A stretch of 41,465 bases of DNA, taken from positions 7,480-48,944 of the forward strand of contig JACRLG010000026.1 in the NCBI GenBank assembly GCA_016235345.1, given 5' to 3'. The notes under the pieces were generated by a model that saw only the letters and a program-made list of their open reading frames with translations, did not search any database and had not been told where the DNA came from. Position 1 is the first letter of the stretch; every line of letters starts with the position of its first letter. Shown one piece after another: positions 3,381 through 41,028 of this stretch. This DNA comes from Deltaproteobacteria bacterium. GTDB lineage: Bacteria > Desulfobacterota > Desulfobacteria > Desulfobacterales > Desulfatibacillaceae. Made by a program: the position numbers and the translations under genes.

Positions 3381-3386
3381 GTGGGC

Positions 3387-6300
3387 ATGAGAAAATACGT
3401 CATCATAACCCTTGTTGCGTTTCTGCTCCTTTTGGCCGGAGCGGCCCACGCAAGCCCCGTTATAAACGAGGTGGTCTTCGACCCGTCGGGAACCGAGCTT
3501 GACGGCGAATGTGTGGAGATTTACAACGACTCCGCCGCAGCCATCGTGATGACCAACTACGCGCTAACCAACCAGGGGGCGCTTTCATACACTTTTCCTG
3601 TCTTTACACTTGCTGCCGGGGATTACGTGGTCGTCCACATGGGCGCGGGGGTTAATACCGCCACCAATCTTTATGCAAATCAGGCTTTGGCGCGGCTTGA
3701 CAACACCGGCGACGACCTCGTTCTTCAAAACGCGGGCGGAACAGCCATTGACTATATCGCTTATGGTTCGGGAGGGGCAATCCAGGCCTGTCCGGGGCCA
3801 CTTAGTTGGACCGGCGACATTTCCATAGCCGGGTATGCGGAGGGCGACTCCACGGCGCTCTATCCCAACGGGGCGGATGAAAACAGCGGCACATGGTGGA
3901 TAAGGCGCACCGGCGGCCAAATAAGCCAGGGAGCGGGCAACGGCGTGCAGCCCGATCCCACCGTCGCCTTCACAAATCTCAATCCAACGTCAACAGCCGC
4001 ATGCCAGGACATAAGGGCGGACGTGCGCATAACCAACAACGACTCTGCGTTTGCCCTATACGACACGGACGTCGTGGTCAGCCTGCCCGCAGATTACTAC
4101 TACATCTCATCCAGCCCGGCGGGAACCTATAACGCCGGCGCGCATACGGTGACATGGGCCGTTGGAACCCTTGCGGCTTCAGGAATACAGAACTTTGAGC
4201 TACATGTGAGGCCCGCGTGCTCAGCAGCTTCCGGCTCCCATCTTTCCGCAAGGGCCGATTACAGGCGTTTTCCAAGCGAGCCCAACCCGAAGCATTCAAC
4301 CTCTGCAGTCAACTCCGGCAACATCACCCTTTCAAGCCCTACGCTCGATCTGGTCCTTGGCGAATTCACCAGCGGGGCCACGGTGATCTGGGAGGAATCC
4401 GGCCAGACCGTCGAATACAAGATGACGGTGCTCAACACCGGAACAAGCGGAACCGTAACCGGCGTTCCCGTAACCTTCGCCTACGGCGCGGGCCTGACCC
4501 TGGTGGCCATTAAAAACGACACCTCGGTGGGAACCAGCGTAATATACACCGACGCAGGAAACGTGGCGTCCTGGACAACAGACGTCATCGCGGCGGGCGG
4601 CCAAGAGGTCTTCTACATCCGCTGCTCCACCACGGCCTGCGCGGACCTTGCCGCAACCGCCGGGGCAACCTGGGGCTGCGCCGACGACGGCGGGGCCCCC
4701 TCGTGCAGCCTTGCGGATTCGGCCCTTGTCACGGTTCGCTGCCCGCTCACCTTCACCATAGTTGAAACCCTGCCCGAAGGCGGCGGAACATACGTCAATT
4801 CCTGCCAGGAGTTCACGGAAACCGTCACCCTCACCAATAACGATGAAAACCAGTTGGATTCGGTTCAGGCGGTGGTCACCATTCCGGTGGACTACTACTA
4901 CGTTTCGAGCGTCCCAGCCGGGACCTACAATTCAGGCGCGCACACCGTAACTTTCAACGTGGGCTCCATCGCCGGTTTCGGAACCCAGGCCCTGGTGATG
5001 ACCCTGCGCACAAGCTGCAACGCAATATCCATGCAGCAGGTAATGGCCTCCGTCACCTACGAAACCCCGTCCCAAAACGTGATAACCCCTATTGGCGAGC
5101 ACATCGTGGTCCGCCACCCGGTGGTGAACATCACGATGGAGGATGACGCAAATCCCGGAGCCACAACCATTCTGGCGGCAAGGGGCGACACGGCTGTTTT
5201 CAGGCTCAACGTCGTCAACACGGGAGACGGCTCCCTAAAAAACGGCGCGGATGTTTCCTTCACCGCAGGGACCGGTTTTTCCAACATTTTATTTTATGAT
5301 TCAAGCGACGTGCTTCTTGCTCCCCAGCCCACCCTGTCAGGCGGCGTCTATACCTGGAACTCCGGCGAGGTCGCAGCCGGAACCACGAAATATTTCAAGA
5401 TACGCCTTCTGATTTCCGACTGCGTCAATCTTACCAATCAGGCTTCCTACACCTGGGGCTGCGCGGACGACGGAGGCGCGCCGTCCTGCACGGAAACCAA
5501 TCTCTCCAATTCATCCATCACCATATTATTAAAGACGCCGCTTGTTTCAGTGTCGGTCCCGGCCATTTCGGTTGCCTGGTGCACTGGAACCACTGTAACC
5601 ATACCTGTCACCAACAACGGCACGGGGCCTGCCAGAAACGTACAGGTCAACATCACTGGCCTCGACTACACAAATCTGGATATAGTAACCACCGGGGCCA
5701 GCAATTTCTCCTATGTTCAAAATGGTGCTGTAACCGAGTTTCATCTGACTTCGGGAGCCGACACCGACTCGGACGGAACCAGTGACGACATAGCCGCAAG
5801 CGGCTCGTACAACATAGTTTTCACCTACTCGGTGAAAACCGGAGGAGCCGGGTGCGCGGCAGGCGGCGCGGGCGGCGGCCTTATAGTGCAGCCGGAATAT
5901 GTGGACGACTGCGATAATGTTTTCACCGCAGGGACTGCGCTTGGGGCCTTCGCGGTGGCGGCCCGGCCCAGGGTCACCATCGTAAAAAACGGTCCCATCT
6001 TCGCAAGCGTGGGTGGAACCCTCGGCTGGAGCTTCACCGTCACCAATTATTATACTTCGCCACTTACGGTGGAAGTCGTTGATGAATACCCGGACGCAGG
6101 TGATACGGCCAACGGGTGGGGCAACTTCGTGTGCACCAATCCGGACGGAGGCACCAACAACGGCGATACCGTCACTTTCACAGTGGCCAACGGCAACGCC
6201 ATAACGATTCCGGCGGGCGGCAGCGTCACCAAGACTCTTGCTTTCAATGCTCCCACCGAAACCTGCGCGGGAGGCCAGACCTACGGCAACACTGCAACCA

Positions 6301-9300
6301 TGACCTTCACGGCCAACGACTGCAACGGCTGCGTGATTCTGGGCAACGGCTCCATTGCGGGTGCTTCGGTCTACATTAACAACACGAGCGAAGAGGTCAT
6401 AGAGGACCAGACCAGAATAATCACCTATACCAATTATAATAGTAACCACCGGCTGGTGGCCGCCGCTTCGGGAGAAACCTGCGCGGTCACCGAGGACGGC
6501 TCAGGTAACGTTTTGATAAACGGCGGCGTGAACGTATCAGCCTCCATAGACTTCAACAACGCGGTCACCGTTCCGAACACCTGGGACAATACCGACGGCA
6601 GCGGCAACAACATAAGCTTCACCGAGCACCTGGACGGCGGGTTCCAGATTCCGGCGGCGGTGAACATGGGCGATTCCCTGGCAACAAGGCTCAATCTCGT
6701 CATTACTTATAATGGCAACAACATCACAAGCCAGGTCACGGTAACCGACAACGGAGGAAGCTTCACCCTGGATTTCGGCGGGGTCAATGAGGCCACCTAC
6801 GGAACACCCAGGGACGGCTATGTACTTGCAATCAGCTACACCCTTTATGCCCCTGCCGGTGCTGCGGGCTCCTTCATCAATCATCACACCATAACGGTGC
6901 CCAATTCCGGCGGCGGGTGCGTGAGCGCACTGCCCGAAGATTACGACTGGGGCGCGATAGCCGCCATCGTTCCTTCAGGCGCGACTGTTGGTGTTTCAAA
7001 GCGCACCGGCAACGCCAGTTTCGTTGATAAATGCGAAACCGCCACCTTCCGCATAACGGTTGGAAACGGCACCCCCTGGACCACCTACGACGCCCGTGTG
7101 GAACTCAACCTCAATACGCTTGGGGCGGGAGCACAGTACACTTGGACCAGCGGCAGCACGGTGACTTTTTCCGGGTTCACCGACGAAACCGGGGCCGCAG
7201 TGGCGGCCTTTGACCCCACGGTGGTGGGCGACGTTTTGCGCTGGGACTTCGGTGATCTCAATTCGGTTGGCTACATCGAAGTGGAGCTTACCAAGAAGTG
7301 CTCCCTGCCCGGAACTTCGCTTGCAGCAACGGTTTACACCAACACCAACTGCACCAATGTAACCGACGGGTCGAGCTACGGGGCGAACGCATCCAGCGGC
7401 GCTTACGCTGCTGCGGTGTTCAGGTCCGCAAACATGGAGGTGGTGCTGACGCCTGAGATTTATTTCATCAAAGACGGCTACCCCACAATGAGGTTCTACG
7501 TCTTAAACTCCGGCAACGGCACCCTTTACAACGCGGTGGTTCCCCTGGTCTTCGGAACGGACCTTGATTACTACTCCCATACCCAGACGCTTCCCGTTGG
7601 AACGAACATGGTGTCGAACGTGATTGACGACCAGCACGTCACGTTCACCTTTGATCAGATAACGCCAGGCCAGCAGGCCTATGTTGATTTCACAATGCGC
7701 GCCCAAGGCTGCACCAACAAAAGCGTTGAAATCGTTGACGCCACGTGGGGCTGCGCGGGCCAGACCACCCAGTGCCAGGCGAGCCTGCCCCTGGATGAAG
7801 TGGCGGACGTGCGCGTGGCAGACAGCCGCATCATAGTCACCGAACACTCGGCGGTTCCATCCTTTCTGGACTATTGCGGCTCAATCGCAACCTTCACCAT
7901 AAGAATTTCCGATTCCGGGATTTCCGAGGTTTACGAGGCCATCGCCCGCGAGACCCTTCCCCCCGGTCTCGTGCTGTACGGAACCCCCCAGTACAGGATA
8001 GACCAGAACGGTGACGGAACCTGGGACGCGCCCCTGGCCAATTTCCCAAGGCCGGGAGGCTATACATCCTATAATGCAGGAACGCGGGTCATAACCTGGA
8101 ATTTCATGGACCCCAACAATGACAATTCCGAAGCCGATTCCATAATAACCACCACCGACGGCCACGAGGCCGACGCCGACGGCCTGCGGCACATGGTTTT
8201 GAAGCCGGGAGCACAGATAGAGATTCAGTTTGAGGCCAACATCCCCGACTGCGCCGAAGCCACCAATTACTATAACGGCAGCCGGCAGGCCCAGGCCGAG
8301 GTCTTTTTCGACAAGCCCTGCGATCACGCCAACATGGGTGATCCGCTTTCGTCTTCATCTTTGAACATGGTGACAGAGCTTCCCTCGGACGCCAACGTGG
8401 ATGTCCTGGTCCAAAGCAGGAACCCGACCGGAGCGCCATGGAACGGAGCATGGACCAATTCCATCGTACGGGGCGAAAACGGCCAGACCCTTGAATGGAA
8501 GGTGACTCTTACCAGCAACGGCGACGGATCGGCCCCGGTTGTGACCCTTAAGGATATTTTGCCCGCAAACGTGACCTATGTCGGTTGGGCCAACGTGGGT
8601 GCGGAATCCTCTGCGGGCGTTTCCATGAATTTCGTGTCAGGAAACGGCACTGCGGGAAACCCCCTTACCCTTCTTCTGAATAACACCAACAAAACCGACG
8701 ACCCCGGAACCACGGTGGATGAAACCACCTACCTGGACGACGGTCAGCAGGTCACCGTGCTTATCACGGCCACGGTCAACTCGTGTTCTCCGGTGCTCAC
8801 CACCAACGCGGCAACGGCTGAATGGGGCTGCTGCACGGTGGGCGGGCCTCCGGGGTCGAACGGCAACAACTCGGCGGCGGTTGACCTGCGCACCACGCCG
8901 GACGGGGTTCCAACCATTTCCGTGGTGGAGCTTCCGGGCGGCGAGTTCACAGGCTGCCTGGGCGCGCTTCGCATGACGGTCACCAACCCCAACCCGGATT
9001 ACACCCTTTACGGGTTCAACGTGAACCTTCCGGTTCCCGCCGGGTATCTTTACGACAGCAGCACTGCAACCCTGGGTTCGACATTCTCATACGCAGGTAA
9101 CGCAGGGCGCGCAGCCATCACCCTTACCGAGGCGGAAGAAGAGCCCAATGTGGTGGGGGCTACAGTTTACTGGCGGGGCGTGGCCGATACCGGCAACATC
9201 CCGGACGCCAAAGCGGTGATCCTGCCTGGCGAAACGGTCACCATCGTAGCCCGGTACCGCACGGACGGGGCCACCATCTGCGACACCGGCTCCGCCAACG

Positions 9301-12122
9301 ACCCCGTGAACCCTTACGACATGGGGGCGCTTGCCGATTTTTCAGCCGCCGGAAACGGCAGCTTCGACGACTCCTGCGGGACCGTGGTTGTCTCGCCGTC
9401 GGCATCGGTGTCCGTGAACCCGGAGCAGGCGGACGTGGACGTCTCCGCGCTTTCGGTGAATTCCACCCTGGCCAAGGGCGGGGACACGATTCAGTGGACC
9501 TTCACCCTCACCAACCGGGGCGACGCCACGGCCAGTAACCTTGCCTTCAACCTGAATCTTGGCGACGGTTACAACCTCATGACCAGGGTTTCCGGCACGG
9601 CGGAGAACACCCTTGCCGGAAACACCGCCACCTGGAACCGGGGAACCGTCAGCCTGGCCCCCGGCGCGAGCCAGACCTGGGTGTATTCAGCCCAGGTGCT
9701 CGCGGCGGGCGGAGACTTGCGCGCAACCGTGACGGTGAACGGCTACTGCGTTGACCTTAACGGAAGCGACGTCTGCCAGTACACCAACGATCAGAGCATC
9801 GGCTACCTTGCCGGAGCCGAGGTTTTAAAAACCATAGCGTCTGTGAACACCCCGGCTTCCATAACAAACGCCCCAACCAACACCACGGCCAACGCAACCC
9901 ACGGAAACGCCATAACCTACACCATAGAGGCAAGGTTCACGGACGACGGGCCGTACACTTCGGTGGCCCTCACCGACACACTTCCAGCCAACATGACCTA
10001 TGTGTCGGCTGTCCCCGCGCCGGATTCTGTGGTGGGACAGGTGCTCACATGGAACCTGGGCGGCGGGACCATTAACAGCGCGCAGACGATTTCAATTTCA
10101 GTAATCGCGCGGGTGGCCAACGCCACCAACCGTGGCGACGTGCTCACAAACACGGCGGCGCTTTCCTTCGTGCATCACGCGACAACTTTCAATTCCACCA
10201 CCCATCCGGTCAACCTTGCCGAAACCAACTCGGTGACGGTGATTGCATCCCGGTTCCGTACTGTTGACCTGCAGAAAACAGCGGTGCCGGTAGGAACCCC
10301 CACGCCGGGTAGCCTCGTCAAGGGTGGTGATACCATAGATTATACGGTGAGCGCGCGCAATTCAGGCAACAGCCCGGCTTACGAATCGGTTTTCGTTGAC
10401 GTTCTTCCCGTGGGGCTTCGCACGGCAGGCCTCACCAACATCACTGTGGGCGTGGATACATCCGGCGACCGGGTGGCCGAGCGCAATCTTACAAACGGCG
10501 TGGATTACAACACGAACTGGGTTGCGGGAACCGGAACCTTTACGGTTACGCTTCTTTCCACGGCCAACGCCACCATAGCGGCAACCGAGGCTTTGATTGT
10601 AAGCTACCGGGCAACGGTGGACGGAGCGGTTGGCGTCAATGTAATTCTCACCAACGGTGCAAGAATCAATTCTTACACCAGCCTGCCTTCCGCCGGGGCC
10701 GCCAACGAGGTTGACCGCTCCTATGCTGCCACCGGCAATGTTGTAAATTACCATCACACGGCAGGCCCGGTATCAGTTGGCAAAACCGTCGCCAACGCGG
10801 TGACTCCCACGGCCAATCAGGCGACAATAGGCGAACTTGTAACCTATACATTAACCTATGTTGTGCCCCAGGATTCGGCGGCCTTTGACCTGACCGTTTC
10901 GGATACCTTCCCCGATGGCCTCACGGTCCAATCGGCGGGCTTCAGCTACGAGAACCCGGCTGGCGGGCCTGCAATAACCGGCGCGCTCACCATAACCCCC
11001 AACGGCGACGGCACCTACTCGGTTACAGGCACCATCGGCGACGTAGAGGCCAACGCCACAACCGGCGACAACACGGTCACGGTTACGGTCACCGCCACCG
11101 TTGACCAGAAGTACAATAGCGGAACAAACGTGGTCAGGGGTGACGTCTTCAACAACACCGGCTCCTTTACCTGGAACGGAATAAACGACACCCCGGCCAC
11201 CACGCAGACAAACAGCACCGGGGCAGCGCCCACGGTAACCATAATTGAACCGACCCTTGCAAACCTCACCAAGGCGGTTCAGGGAATATCCACGCCGCGC
11301 GGCACGGACACATTCTACTGGTATGACGGAATCAACCCGGACCCCATCACCGCCGCAGGCCTTAACGTGGTTCTTCCGGGCGACCTTGTCACTTACAGGG
11401 TGACGGTGCAGAACACGGACGCCGCCTGCAGGGCCTACGACGTGGTGATTTCCGACGTTATTCCAAGCGGCATGACCTACAACTCCGTGGTGTCGGTCAC
11501 AGGCTCCATAAGGGGCGCGCTTGCCCTCACCACCGATTACACAATTGACACCACCGCGCCCAATCTTCAGATAACCGTCAAGCGCCTGGACCCCGGTGAA
11601 ACCCTCACCATCGATTATCGCTACTCGGTGGATAATGGGCTGGCCATAGGCAGGGTTCTCATAAACTCGGTCACCGAAACGGATTATTCGACCCTGCCCG
11701 CCGGAAACCCCTACGAGGCCCTTGAGCGCGACTCCACCTCCGATCCGGCCTACAGCGACCTTGGCCCCGCAACGGCCATGGTGGGCGTACGCAACACAAG
11801 CGCCACCTTTTCCGTCTACCGGATTTTCGACGACGCTGGAAGCCCCATCGCGCCCCAGAGCGTTTCAGCCGGAGAGGTGAGGGTAGGGGAGGTGCTTCGC
11901 TACGAGGTGGAGATTCCCATCTGGAACAACACCGCCTTCCTGCGCGGAACAGCAGCCTCGTCCCACTTTATTTTCAGGCTAATCTTCCGAACGGAGTCTC
12001 CCGCGTGGCGGGCCAGGACATCTACAACACCGGAACGCTCACCACGGCCCTTTCGCTTCTTGGCGTCGCCAACACCGGAACGGCCCAGCACGAGAACTGG
12101 CAATGGAGTTTCGACAACATAA
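3387..12122 (+). CDS. Giant lamin-tail/DUF11 repeat surface protein, N-terminal part (frameshifted)
   Basis: An ATG at 3387 gives a clean signal peptide (MRKY, a hydrophobic core, then AHA|S), better than the GTG at 3381. Residues about 22-140 are a lamin-tail (LTD) domain (PVINEVVFDPSG). The rest is a chain of DUF11-type beta-sandwich repeats with phrases such as LPANMTYVSAVPA. Two alternating modules are duplicated in the first half: one containing DYYY-SS-PAGTYN-GAHTVT and one containing a TWGC...C cysteine group. From about 10255 a longer 690-770 residue super-repeat starts, including segments like the isopeptide-forming fimbrial D2 domain. The last ~50 codons (after about 11972) are out of frame: the true continuation is in the -1 frame, in the next feature. 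Exported and probably cell-surface; the function is not known. Together with the next feature it would be one protein of about 4,300 residues. Confidence 0.85.
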   Translation: MRKYVIITLVAFLLLLAGAAHASPVINEVVFDPSGTELDGECVEIYNDSAAAIVMTNYALTNQGALSYTFPVFTLAAGDYVVVHMGAGVNTATNLYANQALARLDNTGDDLVLQNAGGTAIDYIAYGSGGAIQACPGPLSWTGDISIAGYAEGDSTALYPNGADENSGTWWIRRTGGQISQGAGNGVQPDPTVAFTNLNPTSTAACQDIRADVRITNNDSAFALYDTDVVVSLPADYYYISSSPAGTYNAGAHTVTWAVGTLAASGIQNFELHVRPACSAASGSHLSARADYRRFPSEPNPKHSTSAVNSGNITLSSPTLDLVLGEFTSGATVIWEESGQTVEYKMTVLNTGTSGTVTGVPVTFAYGAGLTLVAIKNDTSVGTSVIYTDAGNVASWTTDVIAAGGQEVFYIRCSTTACADLAATAGATWGCADDGGAPSCSLADSALVTVRCPLTFTIVETLPEGGGTYVNSCQEFTETVTLTNNDENQLDSVQAVVTIPVDYYYVSSVPAGTYNSGAHTVTFNVGSIAGFGTQALVMTLRTSCNAISMQQVMASVTYETPSQNVITPIGEHIVVRHPVVNITMEDDANPGATTILAARGDTAVFRLNVVNTGDGSLKNGADVSFTAGTGFSNILFYDSSDVLLAPQPTLSGGVYTWNSGEVAAGTTKYFKIRLLISDCVNLTNQASYTWGCADDGGAPSCTETNLSNSSITILLKTPLVSVSVPAISVAWCTGTTVTIPVTNNGTGPARNVQVNITGLDYTNLDIVTTGASNFSYVQNGAVTEFHLTSGADTDSDGTSDDIAASGSYNIVFTYSVKTGGAGCAAGGAGGGLIVQPEYVDDCDNVFTAGTALGAFAVAARPRVTIVKNGPIFASVGGTLGWSFTVTNYYTSPLTVEVVDEYPDAGDTANGWGNFVCTNPDGGTNNGDTVTFTVANGNAITIPAGGSVTKTLAFNAPTETCAGGQTYGNTATMTFTANDCNGCVILGNGSIAGASVYINNTSEEVIEDQTRIITYTNYNSNHRLVAAASGETCAVTEDGSGNVLINGGVNVSASIDFNNAVTVPNTWDNTDGSGNNISFTEHLDGGFQIPAAVNMGDSLATRLNLVITYNGNNITSQVTVTDNGGSFTLDFGGVNEATYGTPRDGYVLAISYTLYAPAGAAGSFINHHTITVPNSGGGCVSALPEDYDWGAIAAIVPSGATVGVSKRTGNASFVDKCETATFRITVGNGTPWTTYDARVELNLNTLGAGAQYTWTSGSTVTFSGFTDETGAAVAAFDPTVVGDVLRWDFGDLNSVGYIEVELTKKCSLPGTSLAATVYTNTNCTNVTDGSSYGANASSGAYAAAVFRSANMEVVLTPEIYFIKDGYPTMRFYVLNSGNGTLYNAVVPLVFGTDLDYYSHTQTLPVGTNMVSNVIDDQHVTFTFDQITPGQQAYVDFTMRAQGCTNKSVEIVDATWGCAGQTTQCQASLPLDEVADVRVADSRIIVTEHSAVPSFLDYCGSIATFTIRISDSGISEVYEAIARETLPPGLVLYGTPQYRIDQNGDGTWDAPLANFPRPGGYTSYNAGTRVITWNFMDPNNDNSEADSIITTTDGHEADADGLRHMVLKPGAQIEIQFEANIPDCAEATNYYNGSRQAQAEVFFDKPCDHANMGDPLSSSSLNMVTELPSDANVDVLVQSRNPTGAPWNGAWTNSIVRGENGQTLEWKVTLTSNGDGSAPVVTLKDILPANVTYVGWANVGAESSAGVSMNFVSGNGTAGNPLTLLLNNTNKTDDPGTTVDETTYLDDGQQVTVLITATVNSCSPVLTTNAATAEWGCCTVGGPPGSNGNNSAAVDLRTTPDGVPTISVVELPGGEFTGCLGALRMTVTNPNPDYTLYGFNVNLPVPAGYLYDSSTATLGSTFSYAGNAGRAAITLTEAEEEPNVVGATVYWRGVADTGNIPDAKAVILPGETVTIVARYRTDGATICDTGSANDPVNPYDMGALADFSAAGNGSFDDSCGTVVVSPSASVSVNPEQADVDVSALSVNSTLAKGGDTIQWTFTLTNRGDATASNLAFNLNLGDGYNLMTRVSGTAENTLAGNTATWNRGTVSLAPGASQTWVYSAQVLAAGGDLRATVTVNGYCVDLNGSDVCQYTNDQSIGYLAGAEVLKTIASVNTPASITNAPTNTTANATHGNAITYTIEARFTDDGPYTSVALTDTLPANMTYVSAVPAPDSVVGQVLTWNLGGGTINSAQTISISVIARVANATNRGDVLTNTAALSFVHHATTFNSTTHPVNLAETNSVTVIASRFRTVDLQKTAVPVGTPTPGSLVKGGDTIDYTVSARNSGNSPAYESVFVDVLPVGLRTAGLTNITVGVDTSGDRVAERNLTNGVDYNTNWVAGTGTFTVTLLSTANATIAATEALIVSYRATVDGAVGVNVILTNGARINSYTSLPSAGAANEVDRSYAATGNVVNYHHTAGPVSVGKTVANAVTPTANQATIGELVTYTLTYVVPQDSAAFDLTVSDTFPDGLTVQSAGFSYENPAGGPAITGALTITPNGDGTYSVTGTIGDVEANATTGDNTVTVTVTATVDQKYNSGTNVVRGDVFNNTGSFTWNGINDTPATTQTNSTGAAPTVTIIEPTLANLTKAVQGISTPRGTDTFYWYDGINPDPITAAGLNVVLPGDLVTYRVTVQNTDAACRAYDVVISDVIPSGMTYNSVVSVTGSIRGALALTTDYTIDTTAPNLQITVKRLDPGETLTIDYRYSVDNGLAIGRVLINSVTETDYSTLPAGNPYEALERDSTSDPAYSDLGPATAMVGVRNTSATFSVYRIFDDAGSPIAPQSVSAGEVRVGEVLRYEVEIPIWNNTAFLRGTAASSHFIFRLIFRTESPAWRARTSTTPERSPRPFRFLASPTPERPSTRTGNGVSTT
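11971..11974 (+). other. Frameshift site (one T apparently missing)
   Basis: In the upstream frame the protein reads GTAASSHFI and then loses similarity; in the -1 frame it resumes as FQANLPNGVSRVAG. Adding one T to the TTTT run here gives TAFLRGTAASSHFIFQANLPNG in two joined pieces, which lines up without gaps over 22 positions with the same place in super-repeat 2 (TLFDGNDGVSPHVIYVDALPAG, 14206-14271). The site is therefore placed quite exactly. It could be a sequencing or assembly error, a true mutation, or slippage. Confidence 0.7.
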
Positions 12123-15100
12123 CGAACTCCGATGGCGCTGACCGCACCGTAAAACTTGTCTTCTTCGCAGTGGCCACCAACGATTATTCCGATTACAACG
12201 ACAACACCCTTTCATATTCGCTCACCTCCACCAGCCGGGTGGTGTGGGACACCACTTCAACTGCGGTGGAGCGGGGCGACGTGGCAGACCACGACCGGCC
12301 TCGTCTCGATCCCGCGAACCTGACCTACACCCTCACCCAACCGAGTATTTTAACTGCCAATCATGTCTGGCAGAGCGTAAACCCGGCCTGCGGAGCCAAC
12401 GTCATAGGCAACCAGACCATAGACTATACGGTCCGGGCCACCAACACCGGCTCGGCGGGGGCGACGAAAAGCACCGCCTATGACCTGGTTTTCGTGTCCA
12501 ATATTCCGCTTGAAATGCGCGACGTTGCGGGCCCGCAGATTCAGGCCATAACGGCCAACGGCGCGGCCCTCACCGCCGGGGTGGATTATTCCACAAGCTG
12601 GGTGCAGGCCACCGGCGTCTACACCGTTACCCTGCTCCAGACCGCAGCAGCCCAACTCCTGCGCGGCCAGTATTTTGAGATAACCTACCGCACAATAGTT
12701 GACGGCCTTGTTGGAACCGACACGTCCTTCACCACCAACGGCTACGTGTCGAGCTACACCTCGTTCCCGGCCACAGTCCCTGCCCCCTGGCCCAACAAGG
12801 ACAGAGCTTACGGAAACACGGTGGGCGTCGGGAATCCCAGTTATCTTGCGCCCCTAACATGTACCCATCAGACCGCCTCGCCGCTGCCCACAAAAGCGGT
12901 CACCATGCGCCAGACCCTTCCGGCCCAGGACCCTGTGGAGGTTTCCGATAATTCAGGCCGGGCCACCATCGGCGAGCGCGTGACCTGGAAGGCGCGGCTG
13001 GTCATTCCGCAGAACCTGACGGTTTACGATCTCACATTTACCGATACCGTGCCGGACGGCCTCACCGCCATAAGCGCCGCCTGGGCCTATTCAAACGACG
13101 TGGGCGCGAACGTGACCGGCTCCTTTGCAGCTCCTGTCGCCAACGGAAACGGCACATACACGGTTTCCGGCACCATAGGCGACGTCCCGGCTGTCACCAT
13201 CGCCGCCAACAACACCGTGATAGTGCGGATAATCTGCACCGTGGACAAGACCTTCGTATCGGCCACGGGCTCGGTGGACGCCGACGGCAACAGCCGCGTC
13301 AGCCGGGGCGACTCCATGGGGAACGTCGCCTCCTTCACCTGGAACCGCAAGAACGACGACGCCGGAACCAGCGTCACCAGAAGCTCCAATACAGGCACCC
13401 CGGTCTACTTCACCATCGTGGAGCCCACCTTGGCGACCCTTGCCAAGCAGTTCGCGTCGGGCAACGTGGCGAACGGCAACGATCTTTACGACAGCGACGG
13501 CACAACGGTAAGGAACGCCAGGGGAACGGCGACCTATTACTATTACACCGCAGGACCGACCCTTCAAACGGTAGCAGGCGTTGACACTGTGTGGCCGGAC
13601 GATTTCATGCGCTTCACCGTTACCTTCGTGAACACGGGAAATTCCAGCGCCCACGAAATCAACATGGTTGACACCCTGCCGCCTGAGATGACCTATGTCA
13701 GCGCGGTTCTGGGAGTCACCGGCCCCATAACGGCCACTGCTTCGGACGGCTCCAACCCTGCCATAACCGTCAATGCCACTTCGCCCAACCTGGACGTGAC
13801 ATTCAGCCACTTGAACGCCGGGGCCACAATGACCGTCACCTACTGGTGCCAGGTCACAAGGCTCTCCGGCGCGGGCCGGTACATGAGAAACAGCGCGATT
13901 ATTAGCGATTATTCCAGTTTGAACGACCTCATGACGGACGCGGGAGTGCCCGCTCCCAACACCCGCGAGCGCAGCTCCACGGCGGAAGCCGCGCCGGGCT
14001 TGGCTTACGCCGATCTGGGGCCGGTCACCGAGCAGGCCGGCATAGCACACGCCACCATCGTCAAGAACCAGTACAGACTTTACGACATAGACGGCGACCT
14101 GCTGGCCGTTCCTGTCAACATAAACGCTGCGGCCAGCGCAAGGGTGAGGGTGGGGGAAATTTTCAGGTACGACATAGTTGTCACGCTGCCCCGGTACAGC
14201 ACCCTCTTCGACGGCAACGATGGGGTCAGCCCGCACGTGATCTACGTGGACGCCCTTCCCGCCGGCATCCGGCGCGTGGCCGGGTCCGACGATTACGCAT
14301 CCGGCAATCTGGCCGTGCCCGTTACCGTGGGGCCGACGGACACCGGTCCGGCAACCACCGAAACCTGGTTCTGGCGGGCAACGGACATCGTCAACAACAA
14401 CAACGCCCAGCAGACGGCCACAGTACGCTTCAACGCCTACGTTTCACAGACGAACAAGGCGGGGACGCCGGTCTTTACCGACAACTCAACCGATCTCCCG
14501 GCCCTTGTCAACACGGCCCGGTGCTTCTGGGACACCCAGGAAACGAGTCCTATTGAGCGGGGAACGGGCGCAGTGGCGGGAGCCATCGACCGGCCCTACA
14601 TCCAGGCCACCCGCAATATAAATGTCCAGCAGCCGCGCCTGGCCGTGGCCAAGGTTTCGGACCAGCCCAGCGGAACCCCGGTCAACGCGGGCGACGATGT
14701 GGTTTACACGGTAACCGTAACCAACCAGAACGCAGCCACCTTCACCTACGGCGTTGCCTACGATCTCTCGTTCCAGGATACGCTTCCAATAGGCATGAGA
14801 AACGCCGCGCCGGTGATAATTTCGGTGACGGCGGGCGGGCGGGTGCTTACTGCAAATGATTACACCTCAGGTTACAACGCCGGAACCGGCCTTTTCACGC
14901 TGACCACCAATTATGACGCCATTGCCGGTAACTACGACGCCCGTATCGCTGGCGCGGAAAGCCTCGTCATCAATTACCGCGCCTGGGTTGACCTGGGAGT
15001 TGGCGCTGGGACCCTCATCAACTCGGCCCAGGTCAACCAGTACTGGAGCCTTCCCACGGCCCAGCCCACCAGCGGCACGGGCAGGAAGTCCTACGGCCCG

Positions 15101-16339
15101 CACGGCCCGGCCTGGGTGGTTCTGCAGACCGAGGCTTCGCACATCTTAAAGTCAGCCGTGCCTGTTCCCGGCTCCTACGTCGCAATCGGCGACACAATAA
15201 CCTACACTTTGGTGATACCGAACCCGTCCATCACCGCCAACATGTACGACGTCGAGCTTACCGACGTCTTGCCCGACGGCCTGGAAGTGGTGACTCCCGC
15301 CACGGACATCACCGTTGCGGGGGGCGTCGGAACGGCCATCGCATGGGCCGGGGCCAGGAACGAACAGATAACCATAACCGCCACCAGCATTCCATCGTCC
15401 ACCCAGGTTACCGTCACCATCATTGCAAGGGTGACGGGAACCTTCAACGCGGGCGGGGCCATACCCTTCTACCACGTGTTCGAGAACTTCGGCACCGTTT
15501 ACTACTACAACGCGGCGGTGGCCCCCAGAACACGCTATTCGGCGGTTTCAAACCGGGTCACCCACGTTTTCCGGCCCACGGGAATACTTCTCGAGCCCGA
15601 TCACACCGAAAACGGCGCGCCCGGAGCGGTCAAGATTTACCGCCACATTTTGAGGAACATAGCCACTACTCCGGACAATGTCACCATCACCTTCGGCCCC
15701 TCAACCCGGGCCTGGGAGTGGATGCTATATCTTGGAGACGGCGGCGGCAACATAACGGGAAGCCCCATCACCAGCGGGAGCACGGTGAATGTGGCCGCCG
15801 GGACAACCCAGGAGTTGATTTTAAAGGCCTTCATACCCCAGAACACCCCGGCCTTCACCCAGGACGTGATTGTCATTACGGCAACCGGGGCTACCAACAC
15901 CGTTTTCAACACCGACACCACAGTTGTCCAGGAGGGCAGGGTCACGATATTCAAGGAAGTGTCCACGGACGGCGTTAACTACGTAACCGAGGCCAACGTG
16001 AACGTTGGAACCGAAGTCTACCAGCGTCTCACGGTTTACGTTAACGGGGATGAGGGCGTGATGAGCGTCTTTATCATGGACCCCATTCCCGAAAACACGG
16101 TATACGTTCGTAACAGCTCAACCGATGACAACGCTGTCGCTCCGGCTGTGAACGACCCGGAACTCAAGGTTTCCTACAGCACAAACGGCGGAACAGCCTG
16201 GACCGACGGCGAACCGGCCTCCGACCCGGTGGCGGCCCAGGTGACGAATCTCGGCTGGGAATACGTGGGTAACGCCCCAACCTTTGTTCTTGAACCGGGC
16301 AAAATAAAGCAGGTGGTATTCAAGGTGCGGATAAAGTGA
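12005..16339 (+). CDS. Giant DUF11 repeat surface protein, C-terminal part (after frameshift)
   Basis: This is the continuation of the preceding gene in another frame. The GTG at 12005 is internal, there is no signal peptide, and the in-frame sequence upstream of it (LPNGVSRVAG) already matches the equivalent place in the next super-repeat (LPAGIRRVAG). It carries the second copy of the super-repeat (about 12325-14630), with modules ending ERSSTAEAAPGLAYADLGP and RVRVGEIFRYDI, and a partial third copy (about 14635-15590). A divergent C-terminal domain follows and ends VVFKVRIK. The next gene product ends in the similar ATFSVRVK, which suggests a shared terminal strand. If the split is real, this part lacks export and start signals and would not be made; if it is a sequence error, this is simply the C-terminal third of one protein. 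Confidence 0.8.
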   Translation: MAGQDIYNTGTLTTALSLLGVANTGTAQHENWQWSFDNITNSDGADRTVKLVFFAVATNDYSDYNDNTLSYSLTSTSRVVWDTTSTAVERGDVADHDRPRLDPANLTYTLTQPSILTANHVWQSVNPACGANVIGNQTIDYTVRATNTGSAGATKSTAYDLVFVSNIPLEMRDVAGPQIQAITANGAALTAGVDYSTSWVQATGVYTVTLLQTAAAQLLRGQYFEITYRTIVDGLVGTDTSFTTNGYVSSYTSFPATVPAPWPNKDRAYGNTVGVGNPSYLAPLTCTHQTASPLPTKAVTMRQTLPAQDPVEVSDNSGRATIGERVTWKARLVIPQNLTVYDLTFTDTVPDGLTAISAAWAYSNDVGANVTGSFAAPVANGNGTYTVSGTIGDVPAVTIAANNTVIVRIICTVDKTFVSATGSVDADGNSRVSRGDSMGNVASFTWNRKNDDAGTSVTRSSNTGTPVYFTIVEPTLATLAKQFASGNVANGNDLYDSDGTTVRNARGTATYYYYTAGPTLQTVAGVDTVWPDDFMRFTVTFVNTGNSSAHEINMVDTLPPEMTYVSAVLGVTGPITATASDGSNPAITVNATSPNLDVTFSHLNAGATMTVTYWCQVTRLSGAGRYMRNSAIISDYSSLNDLMTDAGVPAPNTRERSSTAEAAPGLAYADLGPVTEQAGIAHATIVKNQYRLYDIDGDLLAVPVNINAAASARVRVGEIFRYDIVVTLPRYSTLFDGNDGVSPHVIYVDALPAGIRRVAGSDDYASGNLAVPVTVGPTDTGPATTETWFWRATDIVNNNNAQQTATVRFNAYVSQTNKAGTPVFTDNSTDLPALVNTARCFWDTQETSPIERGTGAVAGAIDRPYIQATRNINVQQPRLAVAKVSDQPSGTPVNAGDDVVYTVTVTNQNAATFTYGVAYDLSFQDTLPIGMRNAAPVIISVTAGGRVLTANDYTSGYNAGTGLFTLTTNYDAIAGNYDARIAGAESLVINYRAWVDLGVGAGTLINSAQVNQYWSLPTAQPTSGTGRKSYGPHGPAWVVLQTEASHILKSAVPVPGSYVAIGDTITYTLVIPNPSITANMYDVELTDVLPDGLEVVTPATDITVAGGVGTAIAWAGARNEQITITATSIPSSTQVTVTIIARVTGTFNAGGAIPFYHVFENFGTVYYYNAAVAPRTRYSAVSNRVTHVFRPTGILLEPDHTENGAPGAVKIYRHILRNIATTPDNVTITFGPSTRAWEWMLYLGDGGGNITGSPITSGSTVNVAAGTTQELILKAFIPQNTPAFTQDVIVITATGATNTVFNTDTTVVQEGRVTIFKEVSTDGVNYVTEANVNVGTEVYQRLTVYVNGDEGVMSVFIMDPIPENTVYVRNSSTDDNAVAPAVNDPELKVSYSTNGGTAWTDGEPASDPVAAQVTNLGWEYVGNAPTFVLEPGKIKQVVFKVRIK

Positions 16340-37253: not shown

Positions 37254-37371
37254 GACTGGTTGGGTGGTCCTGCGGGCATGGCGGGTTCACCCAGCCTTTT
37301 TTTGTGTCAGTCCCGGCGATTTGAAAAAAAGACGTCTTGGGGACGACCTGCGCTTTTTTGCGGAGAATTTG

Positions 37372-37812
37372 ATGGAAAAAACGTTTTCCCTGAATCCGGC
37401 CTCACCCGATACCGTCGACCTGGCGGTTCTTTTGGCCGTACCTTACCAGTACGCCGGAAAAAGGGACATCACTGTGGAAATCGTGCAGCCGGAATTCACC
37501 TCTGTCTGCCCCATGACCGGCCTTCCTGATTTCGGAATCATAACGGTTGTTTACTGCCCCAACGAACGGATAGTGGAACTCAAGAGCTTCAAGTATTATC
37601 TGTTGCAGTACCGGAACGTGGGGATTTTTTACGAGCACGTGATAAACAGAATCCTGGACCATCTGGTTGATGCGGTCGATCCCCAGTGGATGAGCGTCAC
37701 CGGCGATTTCACCCCCAGGGGCGGCATCAAGACCGTAGTCACCGCCCGGCACGGCATTGTGCCCTGTCATGCTCTCCCATTGCATGAAAAATTCGCCGGG
37801 AAACCGGCATAA
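37372..37812 (+). CDS. queF: NADPH-dependent 7-cyano-7-deazaguanine reductase QueF
   Basis: Start chosen at ATG 37372, with GGAG six bases upstream; this removes an unrelated extension and leaves 146 residues, the size of the single-domain (YkvM-type) QueF. It reduces preQ0 to preQ1 in queuosine synthesis. Motifs are FTSVCPMTGLPDFG (Cys46 nucleophile and Asp53), ELKSFKYYLLQYRN (the QueF signature) and FYEHVINRI. It stands alone, without other que genes in the window. An inverted repeat overlapping a possible promoter lies upstream. Confidence 0.95.
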   Translation: MEKTFSLNPASPDTVDLAVLLAVPYQYAGKRDITVEIVQPEFTSVCPMTGLPDFGIITVVYCPNERIVELKSFKYYLLQYRNVGIFYEHVINRILDHLVDAVDPQWMSVTGDFTPRGGIKTVVTARHGIVPCHALPLHEKFAGKPA

Positions 37813-38791: not shown

Positions 38792-39529
38792 TTATCTTGA
38801 TCTTCCCGCCGGGCGCTTGATTTTCGCGCGGACGGGTATCGAAAATTGCGGCCTTTCCTTCAAATTCGTGCGCACCACAATTGATTCAAAATACTGCATG
38901 GGTGTTTCGCTGATGTTGGCCACCCGAACCTCGTAGGCCCTTTTGCCCCCGCGCTTTACCTCCTTATATTCAACCTTTATTCTCTGCCCCGGAGACGCCG
39001 ACACCCCGGTCACGCGGAAGGGATGGACGGGAGTTATAAACAGGGACTGGGCAAGCCTTGAACCCGCAACGCCCTCCAGCTTCACCATCGACGGCCAGAT
39101 TTCGGCAAAGACCGTTACGTTTCCTGAAATGAAAAGACTGATTGCCGGATTTTTGGGGTCATTGGTATCCAGCTGCGCAACCTGTGAATATTTCCTGCCG
39201 CCGTAACCTGCGGTCAGTGCCTTGATGGTGACCTTTCCCTCGCCCCCGGCGGGGATTTCCCGCGTGTAATAAGCGGCTGCGCACCCTCAGCCCGTATGGA
39301 CCCTGTTAATGACGAGGCTCGATCCTCCCCTGTTCCTCACGACAAAATCGTGGGTGACCTCAGTTCCGTCCAATACCGGCGCGAACTCGAACCTGGGCTC
39401 CGGCACAAGCGCCAAGGGAGAGCCTCCGGCCAGGGCATCCCGGCCAGCCGCGCTCGCCAGGATCAATACCGGCAGCGACAGTGCGGCAACTTTAAAGACG
39501 ATGCGCCGCAATCCGCGAAAATGATACAT
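38792..39529 (-). CDS. Exported DUF1573 protein with in-frame TGA (candidate selenoprotein)
   Basis: Reading from ATG 39529 (AGGGACGAG just upstream), the product has a signal peptide ending near DALA and a DUF1573 domain: FEFAPVLDGTEVTHDFVVRNRGG, LVINRVHTG, then TGA (39287-39289), then GCAAAYYTREIPAGGEG and LDTNDPKNPAISLFISGNV. A second similar domain runs to the stop at 38792. The frame is the same on both sides of the TGA, with no other stop over 245 codons. In DUF1573 proteins this place reads V-T-x-C-G-C, so the TGA (codon 81) replaces the first conserved cysteine. Selenocysteine is the likeliest reading. The alternatives are a TGC-to-TGA nonsense mutation or a base error. The product would be periplasmic; the role of the family is not established. 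Confidence 0.7.
39243..39276 (-). promoter_or_regulatory. Candidate SECIS hairpin region downstream of the TGA
   Basis: On the - strand, 10-43 bases after the TGA, three overlapping hairpins are possible: CCGC/GCGG with a 9-base loop (39260-39276), GCGGG/CCCGC with a 5-base loop (39249-39263), and UCCCC/GGGGG with loop GCC (39243-39255). Bacterial SECIS elements lie in this distance range, inside the coding region. I cannot say which, if any, forms. Confidence 0.35.
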
Positions 39530-39974: not shown

Positions 39975-40051
39975 GCGCCCGTAGCTCAGCTGGATAGTGT
40001 GCCGGACTACGAATCCGTAGGTCGCAAGTTCGAATCTTGCCGGGCGTACCA
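39975..40051 (+). tRNA. tRNA-Arg (anticodon ACG)
   Basis: 77 bases including an encoded CCA. Acceptor stem GCGCCCG pairs with CGGGCGT (first pair G-U). The D-loop is normal (AGCTCAGCTGGATAG), the anticodon loop CTACGAA carries ACG, and the T-arm GCAAG-TTCGAAT-CTTGC is perfect. The outermost anticodon-stem pair (27-43) is a C-U mismatch. A34 would be edited to inosine to read CGU, CGC and CGA codons. Confidence 0.95.
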
Positions 40052-40202: not shown

Positions 40203-40597
40203 CTTTCAGAACCACCACCACGGCCAGGGCGAACCCGTCCGGGTGATCCTCATGGGGGCCTCAATTGTGATGGAGTCGCCGGGCAGGGAATAAGGCTTCC
40301 CTTCCTGCCAGAAGTCAACGACGTCCGGGTGATCCCTTCCGGGGCCGTGGAAAGGTTCCGGTGATCCGGCCAAGGGAAAGCACTACCGAAAGCCGGGGCA
40401 TCCTTCCCTGTGCGCCTTCGGGTGTATTGATGCTGGAATGTGGCCGCCTGTGGTCAACGTGGGCAGGCTTTAAGGCTTCGGGAATGGGTCAAGCAGGCTA
40501 AAAACGTCAGGGGCTTGCAGGTGATTTGCCCGCCGGGTGATCCGGCATTTCCTTACTTCAAAAATTCCAAGGCCCGCGCCGGGATTTTAGGGTCAGG
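40203..40597. other. Non-coding or decayed region downstream of tRNA-Arg
   Basis: 395 bases with no supported gene. A box CCGG(G)TGATCC occurs four times (40239-40249, 40325-40335, 40358-40367, 40533-40543). The longest + strand frame here (40440-40781) lacks similarity to anything and overlaps the Sel1 remnant on the other strand. Confidence 0.5.
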
Positions 40598-40846
40598 TCA
40601 CTCTTTGGAATGTTCGGGCGGTTTCGGCTTCCACTCCCGCGCCTTTTTTTGGGCTTCGGCTATTTGGGCCGGGGTCATAATATCTGCTAAAAGATCGCGT
40701 TGCCTAACGGCATCATCATGGTCTTCACCGGCTGGTGATCTGGCCGCCGATAAATTAAACCACTTGTGGGCTGTAACATAGTCTTGAGGAACGCCATGAC
40801 CTTGAGAGTAGATTACGCCCAGATTGAATTGCGCATCAGTATCTCC
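40598..40846 (-). pseudogene. Remnant of a Sel1-repeat protein (C-terminal 82 codons)
   Basis: The - strand reads GDTDAQFNLGVIYSQGHGVPQDYVTAHKW in pieces, then FNLSAARSPAGEDHDDAVRQRD and MTPAQIAEAQKKAREWKPKPP before a TGA at 40598-40600. This is the last Sel1 (TPR-like) repeat plus the typical C-terminal tail of such proteins. A TGA (40847-40849) stands in frame just upstream of the repeat, where the preceding repeat should join, and no start codon or ribosome-binding site fits. It is therefore a 5'-truncated relic. Its presence next to the tRNA-Arg suggests local rearrangement. Confidence 0.75.
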
Positions 40847-41028
40847 TCAAAAACTCATACCTTTAGGTGAGGAGCATCGGCATTCGTCGGGAGCTATTTT
40901 TTCGGGCATCGGGTTCCGAAAAGTAGAGTAAACTGAAATCGGATTTGTCCAATTCAGGCTGAACCAAAACAAAATCCGTTTCTTGATTTAACACCACATG
41001 GTACCAGGCTCAAAAGACTTGAAGGCAA

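Follow-up and report, generated by a model that had tools for sequence, protein, structure and literature searches.

OS_HP2 (DUF1573) selenoprotein genes carry two hairpins under selection 3' of the in-frame TGA

Introduction

The bacterial selenocysteine insertion sequence (SECIS), as modelled in the relevant passage of PMC13188914, has a G among the first two bases of its loop and a spacing of 16-37 bases from the UGA to that loop; a section of a 2026 review adds that some putative bacterial SECIS elements deviate from this model. Among the proteins entered as selenoproteins in published tables are those with the DUF1573 domain. The table passages concerned list a 'DUF1573 domain-containing protein, pfam07610, UGC' (PMC9312934), DUF1573 with PF07610 and UGC (PMC13188914; both tables give Zhang and Gladyshev 2007 as their source) and OS_HP2 with pfam07610 and UxC (PMC2398784).

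Here, we analyse a DUF1573 gene with an in-frame TGA from a member of the Desulfobacterales (Desulfatibacillaceae), together with the RNA structures that its mRNA may form. The DNA examined (the window) is a stretch of 41,465 nucleotides from one contig of the host genome, in which a first-pass annotation had marked the gene as a candidate for a new selenoprotein family. This claim of novelty did not hold, as the protein scores over the cut-off of NF041425 and DUF1573 with U-G-C stands in the selenoprotein tables: OS_HP2/DUF1573 is an already published selenoprotein family. That the annotation knew of no such report was a gap in knowledge and not a misreading of the sequence. The family reportedly received its name in a 2007 paper (Nucleic Acids Res 35:4952). 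As far as the portions at hand of the literature on DUF1573/OS_HP2 and on bacterial SECIS elements extend, we found no two-hairpin recoding element for OS_HP2, and the family-naming 2007 paper may show one.

The gene and its in-frame TGA

A minus-strand gene broken by TGA 39287-39289 alone had been predicted, and the sequence indeed holds one frame of 245 residues with this single TGA. The interval first assigned to it (39243-39529) lies inside the gene and covers only its first part, the full gene extending over 38792-39529:

38792..39529, minus strand: OS_HP2/DUF1573 selenoprotein gene (245 residues with the TGA read as Sec; TAA end; NF041425 and PF07610 over cut-off)
39287..39289, minus strand: Sec81, the sole TGA in the frame (TGA at this column in 79/80 named relatives)
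39281..39283, minus strand: Cys83, second half of the U-G-C motif (invariant in 18/18 aligned family proteins)

The ATG start is our choice, and other in-frame starts occur upstream. Once the TGA is taken as a residue, a further 164 sense codons lead up to the TAA, in line with the roughly 165 intact codons first announced. The TGA opens a [U/C]-G-C motif, exactly on the first conserved cysteine as had been proposed, and an alignment of 18 OS_HP2 family proteins shows no variation at residues 81, 82 and 83. Membership of the family is clear from the scores of the NCBIfam model NF041425, 'OS_HP2 family (seleno)protein' (134 bits, cut-off 100), and of DUF1573, PF07610 (55.3 bits, gathering cut-off 26.1, residues 45-138), and the window gene has the U-G-C motif with in-frame TGA that is a feature of the family.

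The host genome contains a second copy with one in-frame TGA (C7:200537-200818) and a third, weak match (22 bits) without TGA. In the 80 named relatives, which are the best of 158 confirmed and come from Desulfobacterales and other Desulfobacterota-type records, the column is TGA in 79 and TGT in one, in a sample that is biased to close relatives because the loci were found with patterns taken from an alignment of Sec forms. As the TGA is shared by 79 of these 80 relatives and by the second host copy, it is not there by chance, and the initial argument that a random nonsense mutation was unlikely is upheld. The divergence of the window copy, whose best-matching relative within its family shares 39% identity with it across residues 29-241, might be taken as a sign of a pseudogene, a nonsense mutation or a sequencing error; against this stand the recurrence of TGA at the same column, the intact codons 3' of it and the Sec machinery of the genome, so that we assign this reading a negligible probability. 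On the strength of the conserved TGA column, we reject a pseudogene or random nonsense mutation of the window gene.

Elsewhere in the window, a minus-strand frame with two TGA (40553-40972) resembles, by eye, a remnant of a Sel1-type repeat protein. Two very long, overlapping plus-strand frames within 3381-16339 (3381-12122 with 2913 aa, 12005-16339 with 1444 aa) are not in phase with each other and look like parts of a single repeat-rich protein that is interrupted by a frameshift near 12005-12122, either real or an assembly error.

Selenocysteine machinery and distribution of the family

All four genes proposed for checking (selA, selB, selC and selD) are present in the host genome (97.36% complete, 36 contigs). 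They comprise a tRNA-Sec (74.9 bits, cut-off 47; called tRNA-SeC with anticodon tca by ARAGORN), SelB (360.6 bits), SelA (587.5 bits) and SelD (342.8 bits), and one in-frame TGA each is found in SelD and in FdhA. Judged from this gene content, the host would be able to make selenocysteine. For the stretch 3' of the TGA in the host SelD (L018), folding did not yield the hairpin that SelD genes of the class usually have.

The NF041425 model has matches in 345 of 389 genomes sampled from the class (over cut-off in 320), with one TGA in each of the 30 best matches; 59 of 148 genomes drawn from the phylum have matches, both with and without TGA, and 14 of them are over cut-off. A search for Cys/Sec pairs at the TGA column, also suggested at first pass, was fruitful: besides the 79 TGA and one TGT of the named relatives, the class holds 15 distinct Cys genes, and a further 18 were located by script among 20 loci fetched from other classes. 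A Sec copy adjoins a Cys copy in two genomes (G001, L142/L147; G083, L136/L143), and both of two neighbouring copies are Sec forms in another (G016, L141/L146). A scan of IMG/VR for viral relatives returned four pattern matches, none of them a relative.

The original reading of the gene as a selenoprotein gene is thus supported by the tRNA-Sec, SelA, SelB and SelD of the genome, the kept TGA column, the existence of Cys versions and the hairpins 3' of the TGA described below; gene 38792-39529 is, on this evidence, very probably a selenoprotein gene with its TGA read as Sec. It would be one more member of a published selenoprotein family that is common in its class.

Predicted structure, export and gene neighbourhood

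An AlphaFold2 model of the protein (36 sequences, mean pLDDT 91.8) consists of an N-terminal helix and two Ig-like domains, and it places Sec81-Gly82-Cys83 in a loop after the strand 72-79:

39428..39529, minus strand: likely signal peptide, residues 1-34 (judged visually from a basic start, a hydrophobic core and an A-L-A that precedes a G; helix 7-27 in the model)
39116..39397, minus strand: DUF1573 domain, residues 45-138 (Ig-like sandwich with U-G-C in the loop between two strands)
38816..39109, minus strand: second Ig-like domain, residues 141-238 (predicted model; single-domain fold matches)

The fold search returned only generic Ig-like matches, and an Ig-like fold by itself does not indicate a function. 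The Ig-like 6bqm superimposes with Z 11.0 (rmsd 2.5 over 98 residues) and the Ig-like 2qsv of P. gingivalis with Z 10.1, but the latter at rmsd 11.8 over 185 residues; to the Ig-like/ASH-type (HYDIN/CFA65/VesB-like) model PF22544 the window protein scores below cut-off (24.4 vs 25.5). No convincing sequence relative was found in the PDB (best E 0.84 with the single protein and 0.17, to troponin I, with a profile). Fusions of OS_HP2 to an OmpA domain occur in two relatives (C-terminal OmpA domain in L112, N-terminal in L032), which fits a location in the cell envelope. Taking the model, the Ig-like folds and these fusions together, the protein is predicted to be exported or periplasmic. On the same basis, Sec81 and Cys83 would form either a redox-active (selenenylsulfide) or a metal-binding pair; we lean somewhat towards redox chemistry, with metal binding as the alternative role that the pair may have.

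The gene neighbours of the 80 named loci indicate no function for OS_HP2. Upstream, a PriA-like gene is present in 40/80 and, downstream, a HAD-hydrolase-like gene in 41/80 (both as BLAST clusters with one member Pfam-checked), and neither adjoins the window gene. The window also contains a QueF-like gene at 37264-37812 on the plus strand (PF14489, 105.8 bits); a protein that resembles its product in a CPMTGLPD stretch is encoded downstream of OS_HP2 in 7/80 named loci.

Two hairpins downstream of the TGA

Hairpins that could act as a SECIS had been placed 10-43 bases downstream of the TGA. This placement has to be revised. For the 51 bases from the TGA onwards, folding is no stronger than in shuffles, and the stretch that includes both forms two hairpins, at 39260-39276 and 39236-39255:

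39260..39276, minus strand: hairpin 1, proposed spacer hairpin (4 bp, 9-base loop, -5.5 kcal/mol)
39236..39255, minus strand: hairpin 2, proposed SelB-binding hairpin (8 bp with one bulged base, loop GGG, -12.5 kcal/mol)

For the window gene alone, this 51-base stretch, which cuts hairpin 2, gave z +0.59, and a stretch holding both hairpins z -0.64 (dinucleotide shuffles). At the gathering threshold, Rfam recovered one tRNA and no SECIS-like family in the window; a tRNA-Arg (acg) lies on the opposite strand upstream of the OS_HP2 gene (39975-40051, plus strand).

We compared both hairpins with the bacterial SECIS (bSECIS) criteria (a loop of 3-9 bases with a G among its first two, a stem of 4-16 bp, an energy of -7.5 or below, a spacing of 16-37 bases), and neither of them alone agrees with the published model. 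Hairpin 1 departs from the canonical form (loop TTATTACAC, spacing 14, -5.5 kcal/mol). Hairpin 2 agrees in loop, stem and energy (GGG, 8 bp with one bulge, -12.5 kcal/mol) and lies outside the 16-37 spacing, its loop being 39 bases from the UGA, or 22 with hairpin 1 left out. The register of window hairpin 1 is shifted from that of the relatives, and the shifted register is without covariation in the family. Hairpin 1 of the window gene, with its 4 bp and low stability (-5.5 kcal/mol), is therefore the weakest link, and the case for both hairpins rests on the comparison of the family's sequences. Close relatives that all carried TGC and had no SECIS-like hairpin, an outcome that would have spoken against Sec, were not encountered: 79/80 have TGA, and the hairpins are present.

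Selection on both hairpins in Sec genes

Constraint on the RNA was parted from that on the protein by comparing each 24-base step with random synonymous recodings. Over 81 Sec genes (the window gene, the second host copy and 79 named relatives), the mean z was -2.55 at +12 and -2.5 at +30, followed by -1.55 at +36 (a step that overlaps the +30 peak) and by values from -0.95 to +0.47 in the remaining steps, a range that narrows to -0.82 to +0.22 for steps clear of both peaks; the window gene alone reached -1.91 at +12. The 15 distinct Cys genes of the class gave -0.54 at +12 and -0.46 at +30, and Sec and Cys genes (n = 15 Cys) differ with Mann-Whitney p of 7e-8 and 8e-8, respectively. Nine further Sec genes of the host's own family had z -3.63 (+12) and -2.15 (+30). 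The same was seen in other classes, where 20 Sec genes had z -2.2 and -1.75 and 18 Cys genes -0.41 and -0.11 (+12 and +30).

Covariation was assessed on an alignment of the 51 bases from the TGA in the same 81 Sec genes. For hairpin 1 (columns 16-20 x 27-31), 91.5% of the cells are paired, two-sided changes are seen in four of the five pairs, and the covariation score was reached by none of 500 shuffles. RNAalifold returned another structure for these 51 columns, without hairpin 1 and with one covarying pair, and the alignment it was given (TGA to +50) cuts hairpin 2; the further analysis used counts of the named structures and synonymous recoding.

Folding alone proved to be weak evidence, as a loose rule finds some second hairpin in 26/31 SelD genes, where there is no synonymous signal (z +0.72). 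Because this criterion is unspecific, the counts were repeated under a strict rule that asks for stems of at least 4 bp at both hairpin places. Under the strict rule, both hairpins are present in 87/90 Sec genes, 3/15 Cys genes and 8.9% of 4500 synonymous recodings, and five choices of the stretch ends gave 71 to 87 of the 90 Sec and 0 to 3 of the 15 Cys genes. The other classes of the phylum follow suit (16/20 Sec, 1/18 Cys), and up to 8/31 SelD (2 to 8 over stretch ends) and up to 8/27 FdhA (0 to 8) pass.

Coupled changes are seen between single columns. Column 17 x 30 of hairpin 1 reads T-A in 39, C-G in 36, T-G in 12 and otherwise in 3 of the 90 Sec genes, and columns 40, 39 and 48 of hairpin 2 are coupled, column 48 being C in 40 of the 41 genes with G at column 40; the Fisher p values of the couplings (1e-11 to 1e-14) take no account of kinship. 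When contrasts were counted, by a simple purpose-made routine, on a tree that excluded the hairpin-coding part, column 17 changed at least seven times, and six of seven contrasts led to the matching partner while one keeps G-U. Columns 40 and 39 changed jointly in seven of 13 contrasts, with no joint change in the other six. The independent changes that support the pairing are few. Codon choice is also skewed, a conserved Glu codon being GAG in 86/90 Sec genes vs 475/1284 Glu codons in the 80 named genes. We conclude from these computations that Sec genes, unlike Cys genes, are under selection for both hairpins.

Geometry and possible modes of decoding

Both hairpins could be measured under the loose rule in 108 of 110 Sec genes. 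The loop of hairpin 2 has G in its first two bases in 104/108, and that of hairpin 1 in 3/108. From the UGA to the loop of hairpin 2 there are 37-40 bases (median 39); with the bases of hairpin 1 left out, the median becomes 21 (range 13-25), near the spacing of SelD (20) and FdhA (18) in the class. SelD of the class has a GGA loop in 21/31 and a spacing of 20 in 22/31 genes, and FdhA has the loop GGTCT at 18 in 25/27, the host FdhA included (the motif was located in 27 of 30 loci).

Our overall reading, held with high confidence, is that the window gene encodes an exported OS_HP2 selenoprotein of two Ig-like domains, in which the UGA is decoded as selenocysteine by SelB and tRNA-Sec, probably by way of a bipartite signal. 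For the specific form of that signal we put the chances at about even: OS_HP2 mRNAs would carry a bipartite SECIS, in which hairpin 1, as a spacer free in sequence, takes up the bases that separate the UGA from hairpin 2 and thereby brings the GG loop of hairpin 2, as the putative SelB site, to where SelB expects a SECIS. The loop GG of hairpin 2 is also a conserved glycine codon, so that it need not reflect selection for SelB and is weak evidence when taken alone.

Two other arrangements have to be weighed. Hairpin 1 alone might be the SECIS, at a normal distance and with an unusual loop, hairpin 2 serving to slow the ribosome or to aid readthrough. Its position matches the one that the hairpins of SelD and FdhA take in the class, its covariation exceeds that of every shuffle, and the section of the 2026 review cited above leaves a subset of putative bacterial SECIS outside the model. 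We nevertheless consider this arrangement rather unlikely: a G at the loop start, so rare in hairpin 1, is found in 28/28 of the SelD hairpins found, the sequence of hairpin 1 is wholly different in some genes of other classes, which would be odd for a protein-binding site, and the window copy has 4 bp only. Alternatively, hairpin 2 could be an ordinary single SECIS at long distance and hairpin 1 be without a role. The G-rich loop of hairpin 2 and its distance of 37-40, which borders the 16-37 given in the published passage, are compatible with such an arrangement, yet hairpin 1 is itself selected relative to synonymous recoding and is lost in Cys genes, inside and outside the class, and we hold it to be improbable.

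Should the bipartite SECIS be correct, bacterial SECIS elements form a broader class than a single-hairpin model allows for, and such genes would be overlooked by programs that require one hairpin within 16-37 bases. If Sec insertion can make use of a SelB hairpin displaced behind a spacer, the rules for SECIS prediction and for the design of Sec sites widen accordingly.

Comparison with known systems

As a protein, the window gene product has no essential difference from the OS_HP2 family (NF041425; DUF1573, PF07610), with which it shares the matching models, the U-G-C motif, the in-frame TGA, the occurrence of Sec and Cys versions and Desulfobacterota-type hosts. The table passages of PMC2398784, PMC9312934 and PMC13188914 that concern OS_HP2/DUF1573 give no structure of a recoding element. 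Compared with the canonical bSECIS of SelD and FdhA, the OS_HP2 element likewise lies directly 3' of the UGA and within the coding region, and its hairpin 2 likewise has a small, G-rich loop. The canonical element, however, is one hairpin, and at the position of hairpin 2 no selection is seen in the SelD and FdhA genes of the class (z at +30 of +0.72 and +0.81, respectively), whereas the OS_HP2 element has two hairpins, the first without G at the start of its loop and the second with its G-rich loop 37-40 bases from the UGA.
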